64,000 bases of DNA. Source: Vibrio hyugaensis (GTDB lineage: Bacteria; Pseudomonadota; Gammaproteobacteria; Enterobacterales; Vibrionaceae). Location of the stretch: the NCBI RefSeq assembly GCF_002906655.1, contig NZ_CP025794.1, positions 930,001-994,000 on the forward strand. The letters are read 5' to 3'. The position numbers and the translations under genes are program-made. Shown in pieces: positions 58,477 to 64,000 of this stretch (positions are counted from its first letter, which is position 1; every line of letters starts with the position of its first letter). Below the pieces are notes generated by a model. That model did not search any database, was not told the DNA's origin, and worked only from the letters and a program-made list of their open reading frames with translations.

Positions 58477-59213
58477 TAAGAAATGTTCACGCAGCTTGAA
58501 AGGAAAAAGAATACATCAGGTATTTGTTTACAGAACGCGTTATCAAGGAGAGTTTACCACTTTAGAAACATGTCCTTTATATCTCGTCGGAGAACGATAC
58601 TCACCTTGGCTAATATTGGATTCAACAAAGGGGCACTCAATTAAAGGGCAGGTATTTTCCGTTTTGACCGCTGCGATCATGTATCACAAAATCATCTAGG
58701 TGCTCGACATTCAGGTAATCAGCTTCGGGATCCTCTTGCGTAAGAAGACGTATCGCGTGATACAAGGCAACTTTACCTTGATAAACAGACCCACTCCACG
58801 CAGGAATGGCGCTGCTGTTTACGATATGAGAGGAGACTTCTGTCAATCTAAATATTCCTTTTCGTAAGTGACCGGCCCTGTGTTTTAAAGCTTCCATAAC
58901 TACGTACAACGTCAGATTTAAGCTAACGCTCACAAAAAACCAAGCTTGCACGACCTCATATAAACTTGCTGCATATCAAGCTAAAAAACCTTTATAGAAA
59001 ATGGGAAATTGACAATAATCTAAACCTCAAAACTAAACACATTAAATTAAAACACTCATCCCCATTGCAACCTGATTACAACTAGATAGTTTTTGAAATC
59101 TCACTTCAATAAGCATGATTAAATGCCTAATCACATTAATCACTCAGTTCAATATGAACCTATTAGCGTATTTGGTATAGTTTCTGCAACGCGATAAACT
59201 ATGAGAAAAGATT
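58477..59213. other. AT-rich junction before the candidate defence module
   Basis: No firm gene. A minus-strand frame at 58637-58951 has a protein-like stretch (about the last 60 codons, with IPAWSGSVYQGKVALYHAI) but no convincing start and might be a remnant. A + strand frame at 58496-58699 overlaps it and is weaker. Base composition becomes AT-richer from here to the right edge. Confidence 0.4.
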
Positions 59214-60743
59214 ATGACTATCAACTTCAACGAAAAAGTTCGAGGGACTAGGGTATATCACAACGGAACTGCCACTAAACCTCGCTCACTGACTGAACCT
59301 GATAAAATTGCAGCACAAGGAAACTTCGAAAGTGATCGAGGTAGAATCCTCAACTCTGCTGCAATCAGAAGACTTCAACAAAAAACTCAAGTGTTTCCTC
59401 TCGAGCGCAATGCAGCCGTTCGTAGTCGCCTCACTCATTCTCTCGAAGTTCAACAAGTTGGTCGATACATCACTCAACTAATCTTTAAAGAGCTTTCTGA
59501 AAAATCTAAGCAAGAATACAAACTAATCGGACTAGAGCGTCAATTTGAGTCGATAGTCGAGATGTCATGTTTAATGCATGACGTTGGCAATCCGCCATTT
59601 GGACACTTTGGAGAGCAAGCAATAAATGATTGGTTTTCGCGTAACTTGCACTCTCTTATGAAAGATGAGAAAGGAAACCCGCGAGTGAATTTACCTGCTC
59701 CTATCCAACAGGACATAGTTAACTTCGAGGGCAATGCGCAAGCAATTCGTCTAGTACATACCATACTCGGACTCAATCTTACCTATTCTCAAGTATCCGG
59801 TGTGTTCAAATATACTCGCCGTGGAGATCAGCCATCACCTAAAACACAGAACAATCCGCTATTAAAAGACTATGACTATTTGATGAAAAAAGTGGGTTAT
59901 TACTTAAGCGAGCACCGCTACATAGAGTCACTAAAAACAGTATTGTCTATGGACTCTCATTGCCGTTCCCCATTTTCATACATAATGGAAGCTGCCGATG
60001 ATATTTCCTACGGGATTGCAGACATTGAAGATGCCGTTGAAAAAGGTATCCTCACTATAGAGCAGCTAATAGATGCTTTAGATTACGAATACCAATCTCT
60101 TGTGGAAAAGTATGGCTTACAGAACGATGATGAGATGAAAAGGATCGTTAATGTCGCCAGTGAAAGTGCTTCAAAAGCTGATAACTGTGCGAACAGCCAT
60201 TTCTTCATTACTCTTCGTGTAGAGATAAACAAACGCCTACCACAACATGCATGCAAGCAGTTTATAGATAATATAGATAAGGTATTTCATGGGAACTTCA
60301 ATAGAGCGCTAATTGAAGATCATAGTCAGAACCATGCATTAGTAAAAGCTCTTAAGAATGTTGCTATGAACTATGCTTTCTGCGATCCCGAGGTAGAAAA
60401 AAGTGAACTGCAAGGATATAGAATCATTACGGGGTTACTTGAGGCGTATAAACCCTTATTACTTTTGAGCGAAGATACTTTCACTAACATTGAAAAGGCC
60501 CCTCTATACGAGCGAAGACTCTACAAGAAGCTGCCCAACAAGCACCTTCGAGCATACGAAATCGCGATGCAAACATTAAAACAAGAAAAAGATAAACCAT
60601 CTGACATTCCTTATCTACCCTACGACTTTGATTACGATGTATGGGAGTTTTATTTTCGAGTACGCCTCATCCAAGACTATATTAGCGGTATGACCGATCA
60701 GTACGCTTATGACGAATATCGTAATCTACATGTGTTGAACTAA
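59214..60743 (+). CDS. dgt: Deoxyguanosinetriphosphate triphosphohydrolase (dNTPase)
   Basis: A 509-residue Dgt-type HD-domain enzyme, about the same length as the E. coli enzyme (505). The core matches: SDRGRILNSAAIRRLQQKTQVFPLE, TRLTHS-type His75 and the HD pair His122-Asp123 (CLMHDVGNPPFGHFGE). It hydrolyses dGTP (perhaps other dNTPs) to deoxynucleoside and triphosphate. Free-standing Dgt relatives act in anti-phage defence by draining dNTP pools. The gene is AT-rich and converges on the DprA/RecQ pair, which suggests acquired DNA rather than the housekeeping copy. Confidence 0.9.
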   Translation: MTINFNEKVRGTRVYHNGTATKPRSLTEPDKIAAQGNFESDRGRILNSAAIRRLQQKTQVFPLERNAAVRSRLTHSLEVQQVGRYITQLIFKELSEKSKQEYKLIGLERQFESIVEMSCLMHDVGNPPFGHFGEQAINDWFSRNLHSLMKDEKGNPRVNLPAPIQQDIVNFEGNAQAIRLVHTILGLNLTYSQVSGVFKYTRRGDQPSPKTQNNPLLKDYDYLMKKVGYYLSEHRYIESLKTVLSMDSHCRSPFSYIMEAADDISYGIADIEDAVEKGILTIEQLIDALDYEYQSLVEKYGLQNDDEMKRIVNVASESASKADNCANSHFFITLRVEINKRLPQHACKQFIDNIDKVFHGNFNRALIEDHSQNHALVKALKNVAMNYAFCDPEVEKSELQGYRIITGLLEAYKPLLLLSEDTFTNIEKAPLYERRLYKKLPNKHLRAYEIAMQTLKQEKDKPSDIPYLPYDFDYDVWEFYFRVRLIQDYISGMTDQYAYDEYRNLHVLN

Positions 60744-60791
60744 CTAAATGCAGATAATTTAAGTATCGTCTGAAGGACGGTACAAATTAGT

Positions 60792-60821
60792 ACAAAAAAG
60801 GGAAGTCACCTTCCCTTTTTT
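60792..60821. terminator. Bidirectional intrinsic terminator between dgt and dprA-like genes
   Basis: AAAAAAGGGAAG and CTTCCCTTTTTT with a 4-base loop; A-run and T-run serve both convergent genes. Confidence 0.9.
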
Positions 60822-60856
60822 GTCGCTGTCAATCTGCTGGTTGAGAGAGTTCGTCT

Positions 60857-62194
60857 TCAACTTTCATCAATCCATTGATATCTAACCGGCCTTGTTAATT
60901 TGTTTATCAATTTTTGCTCTAGAGCGAGAGCTAACCAGCTTTTTACCTGCCCTTTGTGCAGTTCTGATGCTTCAACAAGTTCTGCTTCTGATATTGGCTC
61001 TCTAGCTACAGTTTGTAGATACTGAACAAACAATTGATAAAAGCTGTCTTTGGAAACAACCTCAGGCTCTGAATGTGTTAGTGAAGCGGATTCTTTAGTC
61101 TCTACCAACGCCTCATTATTTTTCGTTTCTTTCTCAGGACCGTCCTCTACAGGCAGCTCATCGTTGCATTCACTCTGAGATATTTCATTTGGCTGTGCGA
61201 ATAAATCTGCTTGTGGTTGGCTAAACAAGTCCGTTTGGTTGTTAACCTTAGAGTAAGCGCTGTTAACTAACAATGATTGAACATCCAGCTCTGCAATGTT
61301 CTCACTACACCAACTTGCTCCTGCTGCAACAATTCTAGCATTGCCAGCCGAAGAGTCTTGGGTTTGTTTCACCCAAGTAGGAACCCAAGCTTTCTTTAAG
61401 TTCTGGATAGCACCTTCCCAAGTACCACCTTTAGCACCTGAATGAACGACTAAAGAGGTATCCGCTAAACAATAGATGTATTTGTTTCTGTCCATTGCAT
61501 TGAAGCGGTTGAATCCAGCTTCTGGGTTGAAAGGAGAGACTAGTACAACATTGCCATTCATTAAGCCACTGCGGTACTTTGCTGAAGTGGAAGCTTTCAA
61601 CAAACTATCAGCGAGTATACCCACAACGGCACCACCAGCATTCATCGCCCCTAGCATTGAAGACTCATCGACTCCTCTTGCTCCACCAGAAACTATCCCC
61701 AAACCAGCACTCGCCGCTTTAAGCCCAACCTGTTCGGCATAAGCTAGATCTGCAAGCGAAGCATTACGCGAACCTACGACTGCAACACCACCAGCCTTGA
61801 GCAGCGCTTTGTCTCCGCATCCATAGAGTACAGGAGGAGCCTGGTTACCAAGTTGGTGAAGTAGACGTTTGGGGTAGCTATCTTTGTCAGCACGAGTAAT
61901 GACCCACAAGCCAGAGCGACTCCATTTTTCGAGCGCTAGTGCCATGCTGTGCCCTCGCTTTAAAAGGGCTTCAACTCGATCTTGAGTGACTTTATTTTTG
62001 GGATCGCGCCAATGAGATAACAACGCTTTCTCGTTGTTATCCAGCAAATCGGCAGGACTGATTTTGCTATCTCTCAACCACATAGCGAAACGCGCCCACT
62101 CCGCATTAGTGAGCGGCTTTGCGGCATCTTTATCCTGCTTACCAAAGTAACTGGTAAGCAGGATAATCGCTTGTGCTGTTGTTGTTAAATTCAT
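60857..62194 (-). CDS. DprA-like protein (ShosA-like candidate)
   Basis: A 445-residue DprA/Smf-family protein. A helical N-terminal part (about 1-115) precedes a Rossmann-type core: VAVVGSRNASLAD (137-149), IVSGGARGVDESS (167-179) and the later segment NKYIYCLADTSLVVHSG. An acidic spacer (about 325-375) links to a C-terminal winged-helix domain (ISEAELVEASELHKGQVKSWL). Housekeeping DprA loads RecA on incoming DNA. The acidic insert and partner gene suggest the accessory type. Its ATG overlaps the RecQ-PRTase stop by one base (TAATG), so it is translationally coupled and second in the operon. Confidence 0.85.
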   Translation of the reverse strand: MNLTTTAQAIILLTSYFGKQDKDAAKPLTNAEWARFAMWLRDSKISPADLLDNNEKALLSHWRDPKNKVTQDRVEALLKRGHSMALALEKWSRSGLWVITRADKDSYPKRLLHQLGNQAPPVLYGCGDKALLKAGGVAVVGSRNASLADLAYAEQVGLKAASAGLGIVSGGARGVDESSMLGAMNAGGAVVGILADSLLKASTSAKYRSGLMNGNVVLVSPFNPEAGFNRFNAMDRNKYIYCLADTSLVVHSGAKGGTWEGAIQNLKKAWVPTWVKQTQDSSAGNARIVAAGASWCSENIAELDVQSLLVNSAYSKVNNQTDLFSQPQADLFAQPNEISQSECNDELPVEDGPEKETKNNEALVETKESASLTHSEPEVVSKDSFYQLFVQYLQTVAREPISEAELVEASELHKGQVKSWLALALEQKLINKLTRPVRYQWIDES

Positions 62195-64000
62195 TAATCA
62201 TTTACCGATGTGGAAGCTAAAGCGACCGGGTATACTTTTCCGCTGCCAGCTTGCTGAAGCTTCGCCGCTATAACAGTTAATGTCCAACCTGAATCAACAA
62301 TGTCATCCACTAAGAAGCAAGGACCCTCGGGTATAGGCTCCTGAACTTCAAAAGCACCATCTAAATTACGACACTGATGAAAACGGTTTTGCTGGAACTT
62401 TTGCTGCTCATTGTCTCTAACTTTTTGTATCACGTCGACAAATTCTAGCCCCAACCTTTCAGCTAATCGCCTAGCATAGTCAGGAACTAGTTCAGGGTGG
62501 TTGCGGGATGATACACAACATAACCAAGTTGGTCGTTCTTCCAAGTCCCAACGTTCAAGTATCATTTCTGCCATAGCATCAACCAGCTCATCTCGGAAAT
62601 GATTCTCATGTTTGTCATCTCTTACCATTTGCCCCCAACCAGCATCCCCCCAACGAGATAATACTCTGCCCTCTTGAGCTCTCAATTCGAGCGGTAAGTT
62701 ACCTCTAAAACCTTCTTCAACAAATGCTCCTGCTGCAACCTGAACATTTGGTTTTATTGGCATTTCTGCATGGCGTAGAAAAATGCCTGCATCGTGAGCT
62801 AATGAAGGGTTTATAGCACTACTCACAATTTCTTGTTCAAGACACACAGCGCATCTTCCGCATGGCTGTGCTTCCTCATCATCCAGAGCTTGACGAAGAT
62901 AAAGCATTAAACAACTATCACTCACTTGATAATCTAGAACCTCTTGCCATTCTAATTCTCGCTGTTGCGTCAGATGTTCGATTCTATCCTGATCCAAATT
63001 GAACCTAGCTGATGTACGTTTCCATTGTGAGCCCTCTTTAACTACAGGAGCCGGATTCTCTACGCTAAGCAACTTCAGCACTTTCTCAATTTGGCCAAAA
63101 CGAAGATTTGTACGTTCTTCCAACTGACGCATTGTCAATCCATCTACAGGAGCAAGCTCATCTAGAATTTCATTAATTTGCTCAAGACTAGGAAATGCTG
63201 AAGAGCGAAAGTACTCATGAATATCCGCATCTTCACGCCCAGACAAAAGCACGCCAACTGCGTTATCGATACCACGCCCCGCTCTTCCTACTTGTTGGTA
63301 ATAAGCAACAATTGAACCTGGTGATTGATAGTGAATAACAAAGCTTAAATCAGGTTTGTCATAGCCCATGCCTAGAGCCATCGTTGCAACCAACACATCT
63401 ATTTGGTTATTAAGTAGCAAATCTTCTAGATGTTGACGATATTGATTGGTATCGAGGTCGCCTGTAGGGCTAACGAAATCAGGGTGGGTAACTTTTCCAT
63501 GATAAGCGCGAGCATTAATATCGTTTCGTACTAGCCATTCAGTAACTTGTTCCGCATCTCGTGTAGTAAGAGTGTAAATAATACCAGTACCATCTAATTG
63601 CGGAATTATCTGAGAAAGCCAAGCAAGCCTTGAAGCTTGATCAGGTAAACTGATGTTTTGTAGCGATAAGCTGTCACGCCCTAGCTCACCACGTTGAATT
63701 TGAATATCACCGAGTTGGCGATGAATATCGTTGACCACTCTATTATTAGCAGTAGCAGTGGTTCCCAACACCCCCGTGTTCGCGGGCAGTGAGCTTAAGA
63801 TATTAGCGATCTGTCGATATTCAGGAATAAAATCATGACCCCAGTCAGAAATACAATGTGCCTCATCAACAACCATTAGGCCCACGTAATCAGAGATCGG
63901 CTCTAATACTTGCTCTCTAAATTCTTCATTTGAAAACTGTTTCGGATGGATTAATAGCGCGTCAATTTCATTGTTTCTGAGCGCATGCAAAATTGCAGGT
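62194..64000 (-). CDS. RecQ-like helicase with C-terminal phosphoribosyltransferase domain, 5' part outside window
   Basis: At least 602 residues are present; the gene continues to the right beyond the window. Helicase parts: VVDEAHCISDWGHDF (motif II and the aromatic-rich loop), the C-terminal RecA lobe (LATMALGMGYDKPDLSFVIH and YYQQVGRAGRG), and a zinc-binding cluster of Cys residues (CGRCAVC). The last 170 residues form a phosphoribosyltransferase domain, with the PRPP loop CFLVDDIVDSGWTLT, in the position of ComF-type PRTases. Fusion of a RecQ helicase to a PRTase next to a DprA-like protein recalls ShosT (PRTase toxin)/ShosA (DprA-like). The operon order is helicase then DprA-like. Confidence 0.85.
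   Translation of the reverse strand, partial: PAILHALRNNEIDALLIHPKQFSNEEFREQVLEPISDYVGLMVVDEAHCISDWGHDFIPEYRQIANILSSLPANTGVLGTTATANNRVVNDIHRQLGDIQIQRGELGRDSLSLQNISLPDQASRLAWLSQIIPQLDGTGIIYTLTTRDAEQVTEWLVRNDINARAYHGKVTHPDFVSPTGDLDTNQYRQHLEDLLLNNQIDVLVATMALGMGYDKPDLSFVIHYQSPGSIVAYYQQVGRAGRGIDNAVGVLLSGREDADIHEYFRSSAFPSLEQINEILDELAPVDGLTMRQLEERTNLRFGQIEKVLKLLSVENPAPVVKEGSQWKRTSARFNLDQDRIEHLTQQRELEWQEVLDYQVSDSCLMLYLRQALDDEEAQPCGRCAVCLEQEIVSSAINPSLAHDAGIFLRHAEMPIKPNVQVAAGAFVEEGFRGNLPLELRAQEGRVLSRWGDAGWGQMVRDDKHENHFRDELVDAMAEMILERWDLEERPTWLCCVSSRNHPELVPDYARRLAERLGLEFVDVIQKVRDNEQQKFQQNRFHQCRNLDGAFEVQEPIPEGPCFLVDDIVDSGWTLTVIAAKLQQAGSGKVYPVALASTSVND

Follow-up and report, generated by a model that had tools for sequence, protein, structure and literature searches.

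A psyrTA (rqlHI) toxin-antitoxin pair beside a separate accessory dGTPase gene: probable remnant of a tRNA-Ser defence island in Vibrio hyugaensis

At the end of a stretch of 64,000 nucleotides from the Vibrio hyugaensis chromosome (contig NZ_CP025794.1, positions 930,001 to 994,000; the whole of it is termed here the window) lie three genes, dgt, psyrA and psyrT. They are best read, with a probability that we put at about 0.87, as a PsyrTA (RqlHI) toxin-antitoxin defence pair standing beside a separate accessory dGTPase gene, in what remains of a defence island at a tRNA-Ser gene. Judged from its sequence, the pair belongs to a known system. The neighbourhood of the dGTPase gene, in one group of Vibrio, is new, and so is the exchange of toxin cores that comparison of the group indicates.

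The identity of the pair comes from dedicated family models. PsyrT, a RecQ-like helicase joined to a C-terminal phosphoribosyltransferase (PRTase), matches PADLOC model PDLC03928 over residues 3-704 (E 1e-298), and PsyrA, the DprA-like protein, matches model PDLC03927 (E 2.8e-161, 535 bits). Pfam recognizes DEAD, Helicase_C and ResIII in the former, with Pribosyltran remaining below threshold (22.3 bits vs 26.3), and DNA_processg_A in the latter (E 8.1e-37). The phosphoribosyl pyrophosphate (PRPP) loop and the helicase motifs of PsyrT are intact, the motif count having left aside two of 87 rows shorter than 500 residues (L068, L089). Purifying selection is evident at the locus. Because the matches listed for the full-length PsyrT model were all helicases, the PRTase domain was folded alone, and its predicted fold resembles ShosT.

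The first-pass annotation of this DNA had described a RecQ helicase fused to a PRTase domain, a stop codon overlapping the start of the DprA-like gene, and convergence of the two genes on a Dgt-type dNTPase gene. These observations stand (Table 1): the stop of psyrT and the ATG of psyrA share one base (TAATG). Followed into the adjoining contig sequence (L002:5194-7308), psyrT begins at window-equivalent position 64308 and encodes 704 residues. The abrupt change of composition that was also described is not found. The GC content of dgt (0.405), psyrA (0.453) and psyrT (0.434) stays near the mean of 0.444 (standard deviation 0.045, in 500-nt windows), which rules out a composition change as the edge of an island. 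Between the convergent stop codons, a hairpin with A/T tracts might terminate both units. Its core, AAGGGAAG...CTTCCCTT, is readable in all five adjacent psyrA-dgt copies compared; the hairpin alone does not prove a terminator, since the scanned stretch holds four terminator-like sites where 4.2 are expected by chance.

Table 1. Features at the end of the window and at related loci (window coordinates unless a locus is named)
Feature	Position	Strand	Description	Evidence or remark
dgt	59214..60743	+	E. coli-type dGTP triphosphohydrolase, 509 aa	NF003429, PADLOC dGTPase, 4x9e alignment
psyrA (rqlI)	60857..62194	-	DprA-like antitoxin (by family), 445 aa	PADLOC PsyrA, Pfam DNA_processg_A
psyrT (rqlH)	62194..64000	-	RecQ-like helicase with C-terminal PRTase	PADLOC PsyrT; exits window
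PRPP loop VDDIVDSGWT	62281..62310	-	PsyrT residues 667-676	
Hairpin with A/T tracts	60792..60823		possible terminator for both units	between convergent stops; L002:3792-3823
LmuA-like relic	58667..58870	-	residues 6-73 of 431	tblastn 95.6% over 68 aa vs G042 copy
Left edge of DNA common to G042 and G078 islands	58665..58666			blastn alignments to both begin at 58665
Lamassu-like/ABC-3C trio	L053:3156-7426; L054:3411-7681		LmuB-like, MComp1, LmuA-like with CTD1	left of dgt in two relatives

That the three genes are the remnant of an island follows, as far as sequence comparison can tell, from two relatives, G042 and G078. A tRNA-Ser(gga) gene lies about 256 bases past the start of psyrT and is followed by alaE; the same tRNA-Ser/alaE pair stands at the island in both relatives, where integrase sequence adjoins it (two open reading frames in G042; in G078 a single one of 410 residues, plus another integrase at the far side). 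In the genome of the window, the stretch from psyrT to the tRNA gene has no integrase left. To the left of dgt, G042 carries genes for LmuB-like, MComp1 and LmuA-like/CTD1 proteins, the same three being found in G078 by BLAST. DNA identity with these islands sets in sharply at 58665, some 550 bases to the left of dgt, an edge that is visible solely by comparison with the two relatives. In five further genomes (G030, G040, G086, G080 and G001) this tRNA is flanked by genes unlike those of the window, which fits what is expected of an insertion hotspot. No repeat of the tRNA-Ser 3' end was found in the window with up to three mismatches, and in L053 only the tRNA itself was, so that the end of the island is not proved through an attachment repeat. 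Carriage by phages was not seen either: PsyrT had no match of E 1e-60 or better in 50,697 phage records, and PsyrA no confirmed relative in viral contigs, which were scanned with single-protein patterns suited to close relatives only. Among plasmids, 13 of 72,556 records held PsyrT at E 1e-100 or better. About 6 kb past psyrT, outside the window, lies an open reading frame with leukocidin-family and ricin-type lectin domains (L002:13170-14606).

The third gene encodes a dGTPase of the E. coli type. Its product scores 638 bits with the NF003429 equivalog model (cut-off 405) and E 1.8e-70 with the PADLOC dGTPase model, and falls below the cut-off of the antiphage_dGTPase model NF041026 (199.4 bits vs 400). 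Residues 37-506 align with the solved structure 4x9e, presumably E. coli Dgt, through RLTHS, CLMHD and MEAADD, which we take to be the stretches holding the HD metal ligands. A weaker relative (33% identity over residues 37-285) is encoded elsewhere in the same genome. The dgt of G075 (L059:5337-11244), 75% identical, is one gene removed from that of an SspC-like protein and has no psyrTA with it.

How often the three genes meet was asked of 227 Vibrio genomes, one per species, with limits of E 1e-150 or better for psyrT and E 1e-140 or better for dgt. Eleven genomes have psyrT, 20 have this type of dgt, and seven have both: G000 (that of the window), G042, G078, G170, G176, G270 and G001. In all seven, dgt is convergent with psyrA and lies within 16 kb of it. 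Five times the two are directly adjacent, while a gap of about 7.5 kb, with type I restriction genes in it, separates them in G270, and about 15.3 kb of other genes in G001. Fisher tests, which ignore relatedness and shared islands, give p 3.7e-6 for the joint presence, 2.7e-5 without the genome of the window, and 1.9e-4 when G000, G042 and G078 are counted once. Two further genomes, G046 and G073, have no psyrT and dgt matches of 45-47% (E near 1e-109), outside the stricter limit.

Among loci whose PsyrA is at least 80% identical to that of the window, seven of eight have dgt. The eighth, G183 (86%), is cut in the gene that follows psyrA, a shortened type I restriction gene with which the locus ends. 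The other psyrT genomes that lack this dgt, G057, G035 and G243, have a PsyrA of 55% identity or less. In G270 (V. splendidus 12E03), PsyrT is 85%, PsyrA 86% and Dgt 81-82% identical to the proteins of the window. The Dgt copies of the group diverge down to 80% mutual identity (in a matrix without the truncated copy of G176), so that the link does not stem from one recent copy. The neighbours vary as well: tRNA-Ser adjoins the genes in G000, G042 and G078, and in G001 the three genes and the tRNA-Ser/alaE pair are on different contigs. The co-occurrence of RecQ-PRTase, DprA-like and Dgt genes, which the first-pass annotation proposed to survey, is seen within Vibrio; outside the genus, no dgt was found near psyrT at any of 77 loci (flanks of up to 10 kb, many shortened by contig ends), nor at four non-Vibrio loci of the same order. 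A PsyrA relative is seen at 53 of 80 psyrT loci, Vibrio included. The association of dgt with psyrTA is a real pattern of one Vibrio group, and a new one; no paper was found naming both PsyrTA and a dGTPase, a weak negative, subscription papers being mostly outside the search.

Three of these loci have features of their own. In G176 (L198:6520-11204), both psyrT and dgt lack their outer ends, the psyrA that separates them is whole, and transposase reading frames (rve, HTH_Tnp_1) adjoin dgt. In V. furnissii (G057, L060:5690-15649), psyrTA is set within a type I restriction system, methylase and specificity genes coming before it and the restriction gene after. In G183 (L200:4457-10904), the pair is near a tmRNA gene and an integrase.

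The eight loci of this PsyrA group were also compared over PsyrT residues 90-600 (G176 and G001 over the part present). The toxin cores fall into two types, A (G000, G078, G270, G183) and B (G042, G170, G176, G001), with 81-99% identity within A, 88-94% within B, and only 52-62% between them. The ends of the protein do not follow this division: identity between types is 86-95% over the first 66 residues, where these are present, and 95% over the last 20. PsyrA is 80-98% identical across both types, and between G042 (type B) and G078 (type A) it reaches 97%, with Dgt at 99%. The PsyrA tree, in which no branch is at star level and G057 forms a long branch, rejects the B rows as one clade (p-AU, from the approximately unbiased test, 1.6e-90; 2.1e-7 without G176). 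None of the 135 variable columns of PsyrA separates A from B; this test has low power, since the best of the 35 possible four-four splits is marked by a single column. Divergent cores on a nearly identical PsyrA, together with a PsyrA tree that rejects the core grouping, indicate at least one swap of PsyrT cores within a single antitoxin lineage, a fresh finding. The PRPP loop differs too, reading VDDVVRSKWT in type B (seen in G042, G001 and L080, a copy of G001) vs VDDIVDSGWT. In G001 (V. mexicanus; L055:7880-10008), psyrT is split over two reading frames as assembled, the adjoining psyrA being open. The exchange bears on how PRTase toxins are held in check by DprA-like antitoxins: tight recognition of the core is hard to square with one antitoxin tolerating cores of 52-62% identity.

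Why dgt stays near psyrTA is a matter of choice between travel in company and cooperation. We consider it rather probable that these are independent defence genes, inherited together merely because they sit on one Vibrio island backbone, and synergy explains the link no better. Other defence genes indeed occupy the same places (the Lamassu-like trio in G042 and G078, a type I methyltransferase in G001, the restriction genes lodged between psyrA and dgt in G270), dgt is found near defence genes other than psyrTA (SspC-like in G075, type IV restriction enzyme-like in G037), and it was not found near psyrT at the loci surveyed outside Vibrio. What fits less well is that the convergent order is kept while the neighbours and the core type of PsyrT change. 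It is possible, although we would not favour it, that in Vibrio all three genes work together as a unit, in which PsyrTA would disturb purine supply and DNA while Dgt removes dGTP, starving phage replication; two nucleotide-directed defences would then be joined. The presence of dgt at seven of the eight psyrT loci of the group, the divergence of the Dgt copies and the variety of neighbours argue for it, as does the purine disturbance reported for ShosT, a relative, in a review (PMC12593503). Against it, dgt and psyrTA converge as separate units that a terminator may divide, 13 of the 20 Vibrio dgt genes have no psyrT, no dgt was found near the non-Vibrio psyrT loci surveyed, and sharing a mobile backbone is enough for genes to be inherited jointly, whether or not they cooperate.

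A bolder proposal combines both novelties: the Vibrio PsyrTA would be a three-gene defence unit, with the dGTPase as a selected partner and the helicase-PRTase core as a swappable cassette under one tolerant antitoxin. It draws on the presence of dgt at seven of eight loci, on the contrast between core and PsyrA identities and on the absence of PsyrA columns tracking the core, and we hold it to be unlikely. Were it true, the convergent dGTPase would deepen the shortage of purines and dGTP caused by the PRTase of PsyrT, and the antitoxin would have to work without recognising the core, by way of the ends that the PsyrT types have in common or at a later step, on DNA.

For the PsyrTA pair itself, a scenario can be drawn from studied relatives. 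RqlH, according to PMC4670107, is a RecQ-family helicase whose C-terminal PRTase causes toxicity and for which a loss-of-function change of the PRPP loop is described; RqlI restrains it, the two being in physical contact, and the pair is likened to a toxin-antitoxin system. PsyrA would probably be made together with PsyrT, as the one-base overlap of their genes suggests. PsyrT joins a RecQ-type helicase to a PRTase of the ComF/ShosT fold; this PRTase would be the genotoxic part and PsyrA its restraint. Infection would lift the restraint, and the freed PRTase would damage the nucleotide pool or DNA, so that the cell halts before the phage is completed; the dGTPase would reduce dGTP independently. 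Toxicity, neutralisation, dGTP hydrolysis and an anti-phage effect are what we infer here by analogy, and so is any role of this locus in protection from phages.

Published statements on the anti-phage effect of PsyrTA are mixed. PMC9122126 reports phage defence by a DprA-PRTase system and, for pairs whose antitoxin is DprA-like, cites shosTA, psyrTA (printed syrTA) and rqlHI; PMC10855318 terms PsyrTA an abortive-infection system. Two points weigh against a working defence pair in the window. In PMC12409345, expression of the E. coli NILS69 PsyrTA brought a growth defect and no phage protection that could be detected; and, the island having decayed, the genes may be relics, though their reading frames are open. 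The NILS69 result would also suit a selfish pair that stabilises its island and has little anti-phage role, as would the integrase-bearing islands on which psyrTA is found in relatives. Here, by contrast, psyrTA persists with no integrase left between psyrT and the tRNA gene, and we regard this reading as improbable, slightly more so than the three-gene unit with a swappable core.

The first-pass annotation had seen in the pair a helicase-armed system akin to ShosTA, and in the fusion something possibly undescribed. In its favour, the predicted PRTase fold resembles that of ShosT and PsyrA is distantly related to ShosA, its far second PADLOC match (E 5.4e-22, 76 bits). A new ShosTA-like system is nevertheless ruled out for practical purposes by the end-to-end matches to the dedicated PsyrT and PsyrA models, and no ShosT appears among the best 25 of the 31 PADLOC rows for PsyrT. 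The fusion, its toxicity and its neutralisation are already in print (PMC4670107), and the claim of novelty has to be corrected: the fusion is PsyrTA. A helper of competence or DNA uptake, to which the DprA-like and ComF-like folds might point, is just as improbable, given the PsyrTA model matches, the patchy presence of psyrT and a Pfam scan of 15 neighbouring proteins (three of them without any match) that found no competence family; the PRTase stays far below the ComF cut-off (21.7 bits with TIGR00201, cut-off 233.55).

Comparison with known systems sets the locus in perspective. Of the Lamassu-like/ABC-3C trio found in G042 and G078, the window retains the 68-residue LmuA-like relic only. 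Its Dgt resembles E. coli Dgt in family score and in structural alignment, and differs in being encoded by an accessory gene in Vibrio (20 of 227 genomes). Unlike ComF, with which it shares 12% identity, the PRTase of PsyrT is joined to a helicase, and this RecQ helicase is also what sets PsyrT apart from ShosTA. The review PMC12593503 describes ShosT as a phosphoribosyl transferase and pyrophosphatase perturbing purine metabolism, and ShosA as a DNA-binding protein that is likely to promote recombination. The closest match is PsyrTA/RqlHI of Pseudomonas syringae and extraintestinal pathogenic E. coli, which has the same two proteins from end to end, a helicase-PRTase fusion followed by a DprA-like antitoxin; the Vibrio locus differs from it by adjoining a convergent dGTPase gene, and its group by having two exchanged PsyrT cores.
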